Source: Aeromicrobium sp.
Lineage (GTDB): Bacteria > Actinomycetota > Actinomycetes > Propionibacteriales > Nocardioidaceae
Assembly: GCA_025965175.1 (NCBI GenBank)
Contig: JAOPXL010000112.1
Coordinates: 1-64,000 of the forward strand
Length of the DNA: 64,000 nucleotides
Direction: 5' to 3'
Position numbers and translations under genes: made by a program. The notes under the pieces were generated by a model that searched no databases, was not told the DNA's origin, and was given only the letters and a program-made list of their open reading frames with translations. Of the stretch, positions 3,084 to 61,837 are shown piece by piece (the stretch's first letter is position 1; every line of letters begins with the position of its first letter).

Positions 3084-3499
3084 TCCTCGAGGAACGCGAT
3101 CTCCTGGAGGAGCTCCAGGGAGGGTCCGGCCGGTCGACGGGAGATCTCTCGCGCCGGTTCGGGGGTGTTGTTGGTGGGGTCCGGGCCGGAGGCGACCACG
3201 GGGATCCCGGGCACGGGCAGCGAGGCCGGTGGGACCGAGACGCGGACGGCCGGCGTCGGCTGCTCCGGGGGGCTGGCCGACTCCGGCGGGCTGGCCGACT
3301 CGGGGGGGCTGGCCGGCTCGGGGGGGCTGGCCGGCTCGGGGGCGGCTGGGCCGAGCTGCGGTGGTGCCTGGATCGGGGAACGCACGCCGAACAGCACCCG
3401 GGTGAGCGCCGCCATCTCCACCGTGATGCGGTGAGCGCCCGCGGCGTCCAGCGACTCGGCCGAGGAGGTGGTCGGGATCGGTTGGGTGTGCCCGCTCAT
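3080..3499 (-). CDS. proline-rich hypothetical protein with PPE(S/P)AS repeats
   Basis: The 139-residue protein has no recognised domain. The middle (about residues 50-80) is a low-complexity tandem repeat of the type PASPPE/SASPPE. The C-terminus (LELLQEIAFLEE) is a short acidic helix. There is no signal peptide or membrane segment. Its stop overlaps the start of the peptidoglycan peptidase gene (ATGA), so the two are probably translationally coupled. A GGAGAGG lies 11 bases upstream of the ATG. It sits in the pilus locus downstream of pilA. The function is unknown; a cytoplasmic linker or adaptor is possible but not shown. Confidence 0.7.
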   Translation of the reverse strand: MSGHTQPIPTTSSAESLDAAGAHRITVEMAALTRVLFGVRSPIQAPPQLGPAAPEPASPPEPASPPESASPPESASPPEQPTPAVRVSVPPASLPVPGIPVVASGPDPTNNTPEPAREISRRPAGPSLELLQEIAFLEE

Positions 3500-7324: not shown

Positions 7325-8719
7325 ATGCACGCCACCCACTCCACCCGTCCCGACCATGCTGGCGCCCGATGGCAGGACCGGGGCTCGGCGATGATCCTCA
7401 CGCTCATGGTGATGACCCTGGTCACAGTCCTGAGCACGACCGTTGCGGTCGTGACGGTCAACAACCTGCAGTCGTCCTGGCGCTCGCGCCAGGCCGGCGC
7501 GGCGCTGAGCGCGGCCGACGCGGGCGTCGCACAGGCGGTCACCTACCTGCGGAGCTCGGGAGTCCGTGGCCTGGACTGCTCGCCCACCTGCCCGAGCAAT
7601 CCGTGGGGCAGCTCGACGACCCCCGCCTCGGTGACGCTGCCAGGCGCTGCGGGTCAGTCGTACAAGGTCTGGATCAAGGCTGTCGCTCCCTTCCCCCAGA
7701 ACGATCCCGGGGTCTATCAGATCAACTCCACCGGCTCGGCGGCCGGCGCCGCCTCACGACCGGTGACCGCCGAGGTGAGCGTCACCCGGAGCGACGTCCC
7801 CAAGGGAGTCTTCGCCCGGTCCGTCAGTGGCGGTGGCAGCGCGTCGGTGACCAACCAGAGCGTCTTCTCGACCAGCTGCGTCAACGACCGGTCGAAGATC
7901 GCGACGAGCGGTTTCGACCTGGCCTACGACGGCATCCCGGTCGGCGTCCACTCGTCGGCGACCATCACCGGGTCCAAGGGCTGCACCACCACGAACTCGA
8001 TCCACTCGGCCAAGCCGTGCAGCACCGGCTATCCCTACGACCAGGATCGTCTCGGCGGACGGCTGACGGCGGGCGACGGGTGCTACGACGCGCGGATGGC
8101 AGCGTCAGGCCCGTGGGCGAAGTACTACTCGACGTACGACACGAACGGCGACGGCACCAAGGACGTGTCGTCGCTGATCAAGTCCGACGGCGACCTGTTC
8201 AAGATCTTCGGCTTCCAACCGGACCTGAGCCAGGAACGCATCGACTCGTTGCGGATGCTGGCGCAGTCACAGGGGAACTACTGGCGGTCCTCCAGCAACT
8301 GGAGCAGTCCGGACGAGGCCAACGCCGTCATGTTCTTCGATCTCGCCGGGACAGACACCGGCGGCACCGTGGACCTGAACAACATCACCGGGTTCGGCCG
8401 TGACACCACCACGTCCGGCACCGCCCCGTCGTGTCCTTCGCGATCGCTCATCATCGTCATCGAGGGCGGCAACGCGAAGCTGAACTCCAACCAGAAGCTC
8501 GCCGCGTCGCTGATCCTGACCGGGAAGTCCCCCAACCTGGGGCAGCTCGGCAAGGCCAACGGCAACGCGACGTTCATCGGCACGATCTTCGCCGACACGA
8601 TCAACCTGGTCGGCAACGTGGACATCACGATGGACGCCTGCTTCCTGGCCAACCCGAGTCCCGGCCTGATGGACTTTGCCGTGACGTCGTACCGCGAGGA
8701 GGACCGCGGACTCGGCTGA
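7325..8719 (+). CDS. PilX-like pilus assembly protein
   Basis: The 464-residue protein has a single N-terminal membrane helix (SAMILTLMVMTLVTVLSTTVAVVTV). AALSAADAGVAQAVTYL follows, the typical PilX/GspK-like N-terminal region in Gram-positive pilus loci. It lacks a clear Gly-Phe cleavage site. The rest is a beta-rich exported domain with a possible calcium loop (TYDTNGDGTKDVSSL) and several Cys (CSPTCP, CTTT, CYDAR). It is last in the minor pilin operon and converges on pilC across a short hairpin. It may cap the minor pilin complex (inference). Confidence 0.75.
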   Translation: MHATHSTRPDHAGARWQDRGSAMILTLMVMTLVTVLSTTVAVVTVNNLQSSWRSRQAGAALSAADAGVAQAVTYLRSSGVRGLDCSPTCPSNPWGSSTTPASVTLPGAAGQSYKVWIKAVAPFPQNDPGVYQINSTGSAAGAASRPVTAEVSVTRSDVPKGVFARSVSGGGSASVTNQSVFSTSCVNDRSKIATSGFDLAYDGIPVGVHSSATITGSKGCTTTNSIHSAKPCSTGYPYDQDRLGGRLTAGDGCYDARMAASGPWAKYYSTYDTNGDGTKDVSSLIKSDGDLFKIFGFQPDLSQERIDSLRMLAQSQGNYWRSSSNWSSPDEANAVMFFDLAGTDTGGTVDLNNITGFGRDTTTSGTAPSCPSRSLIIVIEGGNAKLNSNQKLAASLILTGKSPNLGQLGKANGNATFIGTIFADTINLVGNVDITMDACFLANPSPGLMDFAVTSYREEDRGLG

Positions 8720-58554: not shown

Positions 58555-59595
58555 GTGACAACAATTTCGTCCCCCCAGGTGTTCGAGCGCGGCCATGAAG
58601 GGCGCGAGGCAGACACCCGCACGACCTACGGCTGGGTCACGGCGACGTGGGTCCTCGTCGGGGCTTTCGGCGTGGTCACGGCGTTGCGCGCTGCCCAGGT
58701 CGACCTGCCGCTGAGGGATCCGAAGGGATCGATCTTCAGCGGGCGGATCGCGCTGTCGTACGGGATCGCCGCCGCGCTGATCCTGCTCGACGCCGCGATC
58801 CGGACGGGCCGCCGCGGGTGGACGGTGCGCAAGGCCTTCGGCGTGATGCGCTCGCGCTGGCCGCTGGACCGGCTCGTGCTGCTCGTGACCGGGCTGCTGG
58901 CGTACCACGTGGTCTACAGCTGCTATCGCAACCTCAAGAGCTGGAACGCCTTCCGAGACCAGCACGACGCGGGCCTGGAACGCGTCGACACGTGGCTGTT
59001 CTTCGGCAACAGCCCCGCCGTGCTGCTGCACGACATGTTCGGCCAGGACATCGCGCCGCACGTGTTCCGCGCGATCTACGAGTCGTTCTCGATCATGGTG
59101 CCGATCTCGTTCGTCGCCGCGCTGGTGCTCGCGACGCGCATCCGCGAGGGGTATGTCTTCCTGACCTCCGCGATGTGGGTGTGGATCCTGGGGGTCGCCT
59201 CCTACTACCTGATCCCCGCGATCGGCCCGTTCCACTCCGCCGCGAGCGACTTCGCCGGGCTCGACCCGACCAGCGTGACCGCGACGCAGGCCAAGTACAT
59301 GGCTCAGCGGGAGCAGCTGCTCCAGCATCCTGCGTGGGGGGACTCATTCGCCAGCATCGGCGCGTTCGCGAGCCTGCACACCGGGTTCACCTGCATGATC
59401 CTGCTGATGCTGCACTACTACGGCTTCACCCGGTGGGTGCGGGTCATGACGGTCTATCTCGTGGCCGTCATGGTCTCGACGATCTATCTCGGCTGGCACT
59501 TCGTGCTTGACGACGTGGCCGGCATCCTCCTGGCCGTCGCGGCGGTCCAGCTGGGACGCCTCACGGTCTACGGGCGGAGCAGGCGCGCACCATGA
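58555..59595 (+). CDS. PAP2-superfamily membrane protein (inositol phosphorylceramide synthase-like)
   Basis: The 346-residue protein has about seven membrane helices and the motifs SYYLIPAIGPFHSA, GDSFASIGAFASLHTGFTCMILLML (motif 2 with His) and LGWHFVLDDVAGI (motif 3 with His and Asp). These are those of the Aur1/IPC synthase-like PAP2 group. The start is uncertain; GTG at 58555 fits the first hydrophilic residues. It overlaps the next gene by 4 bases (ATGA). The 142-base gap before it (58413-58554) shows no feature. Confidence 0.78.
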   Translation: MTTISSPQVFERGHEGREADTRTTYGWVTATWVLVGAFGVVTALRAAQVDLPLRDPKGSIFSGRIALSYGIAAALILLDAAIRTGRRGWTVRKAFGVMRSRWPLDRLVLLVTGLLAYHVVYSCYRNLKSWNAFRDQHDAGLERVDTWLFFGNSPAVLLHDMFGQDIAPHVFRAIYESFSIMVPISFVAALVLATRIREGYVFLTSAMWVWILGVASYYLIPAIGPFHSAASDFAGLDPTSVTATQAKYMAQREQLLQHPAWGDSFASIGAFASLHTGFTCMILLMLHYYGFTRWVRVMTVYLVAVMVSTIYLGWHFVLDDVAGILLAVAAVQLGRLTVYGRSRRAP

Positions 59596-61187
59596 CGCTC
59601 CTCGACGACCGCGTCGAGTTGTTCACGACTCGTCTGCGGGGTTCCATGGGCCGGTGGTGGCTCCTGTGCGCGACGATCGTGGTCGCGCTCCGCGTGCCAT
59701 TCCTCGGCGTCCCGCTCGGCATCGACGAGGGCGGAGACTCGTTCGTCGCCCGCGCCTGGGGCACGACCGAGGGCTCGATGTACGGCAACTCCTGGCTCGA
59801 CCGACCGCCGCTGCTGGTCATGGTCTACAAGCTGGGGGTACTCGGCGGTGACATCGGTGTACGCCTGCTGGGCTTGGCCGCCGCGCTCCTCCTGGTGGCG
59901 GGCACGATGGCGATCGCCCACAGCATCAGCGGGTCGCACGCCGCGCGCGTCACCGGGGTCATCACCGCCGTGATGACGTCGTCCGTCGTGCTCGGCGCGG
60001 TGTTCACCGACAACGAGCTGCTGGCCACGGTGCCAGCGACGCTGTCGATCCTGATGCTCGTCCGTGCCCGTGACGCCGTCGAGCCCCGCGTTTGGCTCTT
60101 CGCCTCGGGCTTCCTGGCCACGTGCGCGCTGCTGATCAAGCAGTCGTTCGGCGAGGCGCTGGTCGCCGGCGCGGTGTTCCTCGCGGTGAGCTGGGTGACG
60201 CGGGTCGGGTCCGGTTTCCGCAGCCGGTGGGTCACGTGGTGGGTCATCGGCACGGCCGCTCCCGTCGCGATCACGTTCGCCTGGTTCGAGGCCTACTCGG
60301 TAGGGGCCCAGCGCTTCGTCTATGCCATCGCGGGCTTCCGCGTCGACAGCCTCAACCAGCTGCACGCGTCGCCGCACGGCGCCGGCTACATGCTGATGCA
60401 CCTCGGCCTGCCGATCGCGATCGCCTCGGGCTGCCTGTTCCTCGTGCCATGGTCGGTGTCGTGGCTCCTGCGGCACCGCGCCGACCCGCGACTGGTCCTC
60501 CCGCTCGCGGCGTGGCTCGCAGTCGGGTTCGTGGGCGTCGCCGGAGGCGGCAACTACTACCCGCATTACTTCATCCAGCCCCTCGCCGCCCTGGCCGTGC
60601 TGACCGGCTGCGCCCTCGCGGTCACGACACGCCGCCGCCTCTTCGCCGCGACCGCCGGACTCCTGGCCGTCCTCGCGGTGGGCAACGTCGCCGTCGGCGC
60701 CACGCTGAAGAGCGTCAACCCGCCCCAGCAGCGCACCCTCGCGGTCGCCGACTACCTGCGCAGCAACGCCGAGACCGATGACAGCCTCTACGTCCTGTAC
60801 GCCCGGGCCAACCTGCTCTACTACGCCCAGATGAGGACGCCCTACCCCTACTCATGGAGCCAGATGGTGCGGACGGTGCCCGACGCGGAGGCACGCCTGC
60901 GCACCATGCTGCGGTCGGGCACCGAGCGGCCCACGTGGATCGTCGAGTGGCAGCCGGCCACGCTGTTCGGCATGGACAGCTCGGGGGAGACCCGGCGCCT
61001 GGTCGCGCGGCACTATGTGCAGACCGGCGAGATCTGCGACAAGCCGATCCTCATCCGCAAGGACGAGGCCGACCGCGACCTGGTCCCGGCGCCCGACGTC
61101 AAGTGCGCGACGCTCAACCTGCCGAAGAAGCTGGGCCCCAACAACTCCCGCAGCCCCGAGGACAGCGCCGACTACCTCTGGCAATAG
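59592..61187 (+). CDS. GT-C-type (GT39-like) membrane glycosyltransferase
   Basis: The 531-residue protein has about ten membrane helices. An N-terminal loop carries LGIDEGGDSFVARAW (Asp/Glu motif) and WLDRPPLLVMVYKLG, the D-x-P-P pair typical of GT-C dolichyl-phosphate sugar mannosyl/arabinosyl transferases. A C-terminal extracytoplasmic domain of about 150 residues (SDDSLYVLYARANLLYYAQM-type) follows. It uses a lipid-linked sugar outside the membrane (family knowledge). It is coupled to the PAP2 gene, so both may serve one glycolipid or cell-wall step (inference). Confidence 0.75.
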   Translation: MTLLDDRVELFTTRLRGSMGRWWLLCATIVVALRVPFLGVPLGIDEGGDSFVARAWGTTEGSMYGNSWLDRPPLLVMVYKLGVLGGDIGVRLLGLAAALLLVAGTMAIAHSISGSHAARVTGVITAVMTSSVVLGAVFTDNELLATVPATLSILMLVRARDAVEPRVWLFASGFLATCALLIKQSFGEALVAGAVFLAVSWVTRVGSGFRSRWVTWWVIGTAAPVAITFAWFEAYSVGAQRFVYAIAGFRVDSLNQLHASPHGAGYMLMHLGLPIAIASGCLFLVPWSVSWLLRHRADPRLVLPLAAWLAVGFVGVAGGGNYYPHYFIQPLAALAVLTGCALAVTTRRRLFAATAGLLAVLAVGNVAVGATLKSVNPPQQRTLAVADYLRSNAETDDSLYVLYARANLLYYAQMRTPYPYSWSQMVRTVPDAEARLRTMLRSGTERPTWIVEWQPATLFGMDSSGETRRLVARHYVQTGEICDKPILIRKDEADRDLVPAPDVKCATLNLPKKLGPNNSRSPEDSADYLWQ

Positions 61188-61192
61188 TTCCG

Positions 61193-61400
61193 CTGACGAG
61201 TCACGCAGATCCGGTGAAGAGTCACGGAGATCCAGTGAGGAGTCACGGAGATCCAGTGAGGAGTCACGTACGGCTTTCGTACCGACACTCGTCGGCCGAC
61301 CCAGGTGACTCCTCAGCGAACCTGCGTGACTCGTCAGCGAACCTGCGTGACTCGTCAGCGAACCTGCGTGACTCGTCAGCGAACCTGCGTGACTCCTCAG
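61193..61400. repeat. two oppositely oriented arrays of 21-nt repeats
   Basis: Left arm (61193-61273): four units of the form GTGAGGAGTCACGGAGATCCA, the last cut short. Right arm (61301-61400): five units of the form CTGCGTGACTCGTCAGCGAAC in the inverse sense. Both share TGA(C/G)GAGTCACG or its complement. Between them CGTACG (61266-61271... near the centre) and CGTAC form a small hairpin. The arms lie between convergent genes and can form long stems. They are not a CRISPR array because the repeats are contiguous with no spacers. Confidence 0.75.
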
Positions 61401-61837
61401 CGGTGGGGGTGGGGGCGGAGCTCGTCGCGGCGCCGCCAGGCCCCGGTCGACCACAGCGCCAGCGCCACGAGGGCGGGCTGGAACGGCAGGCGAAGCCACC
61501 GGGCGCGGTCGGTCTCGAGGCCGAACGCGTCGATGTGGTTGACGAGCTGGTTGATGTTGCCCGGGAACACCGCGACGAAGAACGCCGCCACGACCCAGCC
61601 CACGCGCACCCGCTGACGGGGGAGCGCCACAAGGGCGCCGCCCAGCGCGATCTCGACGACGCCCGAGGCCACGACGACCGGGTCCGTACCGAGCGGCAGC
61701 CAGTCCGGGACCTGCGCCTGGAACTCCTGGCGCGCCCACGTCAGGTGGCTGACACCGGCGAACACCAGACCCGCGCCGAGCAGGACCCGGCCGGCCGTGC
61801 GGACGACGGGGGAGCGGTACGTCTCGGTGGTCGACAT
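61397..61837 (-). CDS. DoxX-family membrane protein
   Basis: The 146-residue protein has four membrane helices of the DoxX/DoxD group (GRVLLGAGLVFAGVSHLTWAR, VVVASGVVEIALGGALVAL, VGWVVAAFFVAVFPGNINQLVNH, PALVALALWSTGAW). FPGNINQ with the following NHIDAFGL is typical of one subfamily. The ATG at 61837 is chosen over one at 61903, which would overlap the divergent gene. Its stop lies within the last unit of the 21-nt repeat array. Confidence 0.85.
   Translation of the reverse strand: MSTTETYRSPVVRTAGRVLLGAGLVFAGVSHLTWARQEFQAQVPDWLPLGTDPVVVASGVVEIALGGALVALPRQRVRVGWVVAAFFVAVFPGNINQLVNHIDAFGLETDRARWLRLPFQPALVALALWSTGAWRRRDELRPHPHR

Follow-up and report, generated by a model that had tools for sequence, protein, structure and literature searches.

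The 21-nt repeat array at positions 61193-61400 of the window, by which we mean the whole stretch of 64,000 nucleotides analysed from Aeromicrobium sp., probably belongs, as a non-autonomous copy, to a dispersed repeat family paired with a trans-acting AbiEi/nuclease-like protein whose gene lies elsewhere in the genome. The observations that directly support this reading are the anatomy of the array, its dispersal, the inward direction of its arms, the pairing of repeat cores with proteins and their co-divergence, the conservation of residues that are putatively catalytic, the recurrence of the layout in other actinobacterial families, and the turnover of arrays.

Direct reading of the sequence confirms the layout given in the original prediction, namely four left and five right 21-nt units, inverted relative to each other around a central hairpin and located between convergent genes. 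The features are as follows.

59592..61187, + strand: gene for a PMT_2-domain membrane protein, flanking the left arm
61186..61268, + strand: left arm, four 21-nt units with cores at 61193-61204, 61214-61225, 61235-61246 and 61256-61267
61268-61282, no strand: central hairpin between the arms, 5-bp stem GTACG-GCTTT-CGTAC, found by direct reading
61284..61294, - strand: possible sixth unit of the right arm, degenerate, found by the chaining of the unit finder with at most 2 mismatches
61305..61401, - strand: right arm, five 21-nt units starting at 61305, 61326, 61347, 61368 and 61389
61397..61837, - strand: gene for a MauE/DoxX-like membrane protein (below the Pfam cut-off), flanking the right arm

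The unit period is exactly 21 nt in both arms. The first core of the left arm starts 6 nt past the PMT_2 stop codon, and on the other side the outermost right unit supplies, with its TGA, the stop codon (61397-61399) of the MauE/DoxX-like gene. The core originally given, TGACGAGTCAC, is present, but it is not strict, since one position varies (TGA[C/A/G]GAGTCAC). A two-unit pattern matches seven times in the window, versus 0.00 matches expected from shuffled sequences. No unit of a second repeat family, whose core is GCGTGGGTT, lies inside the window. Elsewhere in the window, at positions 3263-3354, a sequence of 18 nt (CTCGGGGGGGCTGGCCGA) is tandemly repeated in 5 copies with 90% matches.

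Three other descriptions of the array were considered and dropped. A palindromic site, GTGAC-GA-GTCAC, does not serve as a general rule, given that cores without a palindrome exist; the motif CUGANGAG recalls a hammerhead but lacks the GAAA half; and in a CRISPR array the spacers would be unique, whereas here the units are contiguous and the "spacers" are near-identical.

When the window element is compared by BLAST with its own genome (G000), approximately 20 array loci are found, most of which are inverted and two-armed and some of which are one-armed. Arrays of the window family are present in 8 of the 49 Aeromicrobium genomes; the search of the genome and its relatives, proposed originally as a check, thus reveals a family. 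In a scan that used one genome per species, most copies were found in Aeromicrobium, together with one array in Sinomonas, which is a real match, and one in a Frankiaceae MAG, where the array is present though the sequence may be misbinned. The remaining off-genus matches probably reflect chance or repeats of another kind; they come from Bacteroidaceae, Halorubrum, Streptomyces, Myxococcales and others. Contigs of the Bacteroidaceae MAG RGIG8676 (L053, L066, L076, L088-L090) and of Prevotellaceae (L070) contain matches at 23-nt spacing, with units GTGACTCGTCC in L053, that apparently belong to an unrelated repeat.

The arms aim inwards from the 3' ends of genes. After de-duplication the set comprised 173 arms, of which 132 could be classified and 41 could not; a same-strand coding frame precedes 114 arms and an opposite-strand frame 18 (p = 3e-18), in a sample of retrieved loci that were picked because they bear arrays. 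The outermost unit has the form CGC-TGA-SGAGTCAC, and among the 114 same-strand arms there are 37 whose gene has this TGA as its stop codon; most of the others begin at most 16 nt from the stop codon. The 8-9 nt that separate the cores resemble one another within a species and differ between species, and the GAGTCAC core carries about 2 bits at most positions across species, which indicates that arrays are homogenised within genomes and that the core is conserved.

Orthologous loci also allow the turnover of arrays to be followed. Between G012 and G152 the array loci mostly coincide, so movement must be slow or old, and the number of units differs at 6 of 9 loci. At the gene pair of the window, the own genome has a 216-bp array, G013 a remnant of about 25 bp and G133 none; the PMT_2 orthologs of G013 and G133 adjoin the same - strand gene. 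The G013 remnant consists of the outer array ends only (CCGCTG...GACTCGTCAGCGG), and this genome, whose PMT protein is 96% identical to that of the own genome, has no close homolog of the nuclease-like protein described below. Copy number, the second check proposed originally, is thus not fixed, and the suggestion of an expanding repeat is compatible with the differences in unit number. No target-site duplication was identified at the arrays. In one region of G012 (L250, G012:C2:625000-634000), a segment of about 7.4 kb with F420-biosynthesis-like genes splits an array locus that is single in G000 and G152, with an array at each end (688-828 and 8156-8317); it looks as if the segment was gained, lost or moved through recombination at arrays.

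The candidate partner of the repeats is encoded in the own genome at positions 4691-5605 of contig C112, between two inverted arrays of the window repeat. Array pairs that enclose at least about 1 kb encode one kind of protein, about 305 amino acids long, in six examined stretches from six organisms; a few other array pairs surround unrelated genes. The protein matches the family profiles REase_MTES_1575, DUF559 and AbiEi, mostly below the curated cut-offs. No Y1 (HUH) transposase domain (PF01797) was detected, the matches at E <= 1 being only of the MTES_1575/DUF559/AbiEi type or due to chance, and a sequence search of the PDB gave nothing useful.

An AlphaFold2 model of the protein (pLDDT 90) was used in a structure search. 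Its N-terminal part matches the AbiEi antitoxin 6y8q (E 8e-7). For the C-terminal domain the search shows a resemblance to the homing endonuclease I-Bth0305I (3r3p; TM 0.71 by target and probability 0.96, but with a weak E of 0.28) and, less closely, to Vsr. Across 26 proteins, five putatively catalytic residues never vary, namely E200, D232, D245 (D245-G), H250 and D259; we infer that E200, D232, H250 and D259 may form an EDxHD set. In our preferred reading the protein would join an AbiEi-like winged-helix DNA-binding half to a half resembling Vsr and the EDxHD homing endonucleases. In viral contigs, none of the 45 stretches that match the peptide patterns encodes a relative of this protein.

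Core and protein are paired within Aeromicrobium. The protein of this clade is flanked by window-family arrays in 7 of the 8 array-bearing genomes. Six of these (G000, G152, G012, G015, G157 and G166) encode a protein at least 65% identical to that of the own genome, and none of the array-free genomes among the 49 searched does so. In the seventh, G021 (apparently A. ginsengisoli), a homolog with 49% identity is flanked by the window core. The eighth, G184, which is 71% complete, has only weak homologs and no clear cognate gene. The co-occurrence of array and protein in the 49 genomes has a Fisher p of 9e-8, a value that ignores phylogeny and is indicative only. Note that G184, an Aeromicrobium MAG that is likely YM.16, ranks first for GAGTCAC array pairs among the genomes of its search, with 56 matches.

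Other homologs, with about 50% identity, are also flanked by inverted arrays of 21-22-nt units, nearly all of them with different cores, namely GCGTGGGTT, GAGAGACTT, GAGGGTT, GGGGGTT, GGGTACTT and ACCCTT; the flank of the G186 homolog has the variant GCGAGTCAC. This leads to the prediction that those cores are dispersed in the genomes concerned and not elsewhere, which was tested for two cores known beforehand only from the flanks of homologs. The core GCGTGGGTT, in units GCTGACGCGTGGGTT, occurs 125 times in G157, 104 in G000, 50 in G013, 35 in G169 and 17 in G008, and at most 4 times in each of the other 44 genomes; its co-occurrence with the protein has a Fisher p of 5e-7, again indicative only, with phylogeny ignored. 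The core GAGAGACTTC, in units CTGACGAGAGACTTC, occurs 35 times in G155 and at most twice elsewhere. Mapping the core label on the protein tree takes 8 changes, versus 14 for shuffled labels, and none of the 200 shuffles was as low. As judged from sequence, the own genome carries two repeat-protein pairs, that of contig C112 with the window family and that of contig C136 with the GCGTGGGTT arrays. The gene of the second pair (G000:C136:11626-12534, L186) lies between a DUF349 gene and rel, and its units number about 104 genome-wide. More generally, the nuclease-like genes occupy fixed syntenic sites, either next to livF or between rel and the DUF349 gene.

The arrangement extends beyond the genus. 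In a profile search, 212 of the 395 class genomes sampled, from many families, have a homolog at E <= 1e-25. Inverted repeats common to both flanks are present at 21 of 25 homologs from other genera, compared with none of 29 MauE control loci. The mismatched-pair null of this test is 5% class-wide and 22% in the Aeromicrobium clade, where the sharing of cores by related loci raises it; the class-wide set is thus the fair one. One such core, GTGATCATGCA, is present in 413, 328, 106, 90 and 45 copies in five genomes and in at most 8 copies in each of the other 11 searched. A family with a 26-nt period recurs in G113 (160-kb sample), and in G102 a sample of 160 kb showed no further copy of the array family that flanks the homolog. 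Several distant DUF559 genes of Aeromicrobium (L143, L144, L147 and L142) are flanked by inverted, hairpin-like copies of 40-70 bp. A tandem-repeat scan had suggested the distant homologs as array-free negative controls; this use was dropped because a looser test finds non-tandem flanking inverted copies in 8 of 11.

These observations suggest a mechanism. AbiEi proteins are reported to bind 23-bp repeats (PMC7319586), and by analogy it is a natural guess that each 21-22-nt unit would be the binding site of one protein. The conserved putative nuclease site suggests that the protein, once bound, may nick or cut at the units. Repair from other copies would then spread, homogenise and maintain the arrays. 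Favoured landing sites would be the 3' ends of convergent genes, where little harm would be done because the CGC-TGA end of the unit can supply or overlap the stop codon. Local influence on transcription ends would be a by-product, and termination is at most a secondary effect. The original prediction of a protein-binding array is compatible with all of this, although the genome-wide family and the paired nuclease-like gene were invisible to it; as a whole, the prediction is partly supported. We lean, with modest confidence, towards a broader conclusion, that such arrays belong to a widespread class of actinobacterial elements, mobile or domesticated, whose AbiEi-EDxHD nuclease copies the arrays that it recognises, keeps them uniform and maintains them where host genes end, at the 3' side, with a repeat specificity that depends on the species. 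Such elements would be a counterpart of REP-RAYT with a non-HUH enzyme and may account for many "AbiEi/DUF559" genes of Actinobacteria.

The main rival, which we consider unlikely, is that the arrays serve the host: a domesticated AbiEi/nuclease-like factor would block convergent transcription or organise the chromosome, and selection, not self-spread, would keep the arrays. Such a roadblock or organiser would account for arms that begin right past stop codons in alignment with transcription, for a unit period of two helical turns, for the many loci kept between species, and for the fixed syntenic sites of the nuclease-like genes. However, relatives have different arrays, or none, at the same gene pair, and the approximately 20 loci, counting only the window family, are a small share of all gene ends. 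Moreover, cores and proteins change together across species, and the putative nuclease residues are invariant although mere binding would not need them.

It is very improbable that the nuclease-like genes are passengers that inserted into pre-existing arrays spread by something else. The gene is indeed always enclosed by an array pair, as expected of an insert, but the coincidence would have to recur in several families and at two sites that are unrelated, and on each occasion the core would have to match the protein clade.

The folding into stems that was proposed originally holds for the whole array region (-127.7 kcal/mol, z = -8.4, with 0 of 200 shuffles equally stable); single arms do not fold clearly better than shuffles (z -2.3 to +1.0). 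The two-way terminator that was also proposed is plausible from its position just past the stop codons, but the least probable reading of all is that the inverted repeats are simply an intrinsic terminator for both directions and have no cognate protein: the location between convergent genes and the stability of the whole element favour it, whereas the lack of a clear folding excess in single arms, the existence of one-armed arrays, the absence of a U-tract and the unexplained pairing of core with flanking nuclease gene argue against it.

The dispersed family with its trans-acting protein, which remains our preferred reading, can be compared with three known systems. REP-RAYT is the best-known bacterial case of repeats kept by a single-copy nuclease. 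It is recognised by flanking inverted repeat copies, an abundance that tracks the cognate gene, and the co-divergence of repeat and protein (PMC2817692), and REPINs are doublets of REPs (PMC3116915). Our system is similar in that the gene lies between two inverted repeat copies, the repeats are species-specific and dispersed between genes, their abundance follows the presence of the cognate gene, and repeat and protein co-diverge. It differs in the enzyme, which combines an AbiEi-like wHTH with a Vsr/EDxHD-type nuclease and in which no Y1/HUH domain was found; in the units, which are arranged head-to-tail in about 2-8 copies per arm with a 21-22-nt period; in the cores, such as GCGTGGGTT, which are not palindromic, so that the units are not short hairpins; and in the outer array end, where CGC-TGA overlaps stop codons.

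The catalytic domain of the EDxHD homing endonuclease I-Bth0305I resembles the C-terminal fold, at the weak E value given above, and the invariant E...D...H...D set of our proteins may be of the EDxHD type. Here, however, the gene lies outside any intron or intein, the nuclease is joined to an AbiEi-like domain, and the recognition site would be a dispersed host repeat. The AbiE antitoxin AbiEi (6y8q; Rv2827c) shares the N-terminal fold, and the 23-bp repeats bound by AbiEi proteins (PMC7319586) are close in length to our units. In contrast to AbiE, a single gene is present, fused to a nuclease domain; the cassette between the arms has room for one gene only, and the repeats are genome-wide. 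With respect to a neighbouring DUF1814 toxin gene, inspection of the outer neighbours by eye suggests livF, rel and DUF349-type genes.

In the open-access literature, with subscription journals and preprints outside the scope, we found no account that ties DUF559, MTES_1575 or AbiEi genes to dispersed repeats. Among the described repeat-nuclease pairs that we know of or found, none has a homolog of either component; the logic of the system is RAYT-like. No described role was found for the DUF559/MTES_1575/AbiEi-antitoxin genes that are common in Actinobacteria, and the pairing with repeats, if true, gives them a testable one. It would also name a source for many unexplained intergenic repeats in actinobacterial genomes and provide an independent counterpart to REP-RAYT, and the matched core-protein pairs form a natural series for studying the evolution of DNA specificity.

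Finally, the nuclease-like genes share an upstream motif. CTGTGGA[CT] or its complement (TCCACAG), which resembles part of a DnaA box, is found upstream of 52 of 53 nuclease-like genes versus 1 of 29 controls, and the motif is located 50-120 nt upstream of most of them (e.g., L120-L137 and L223-L249).
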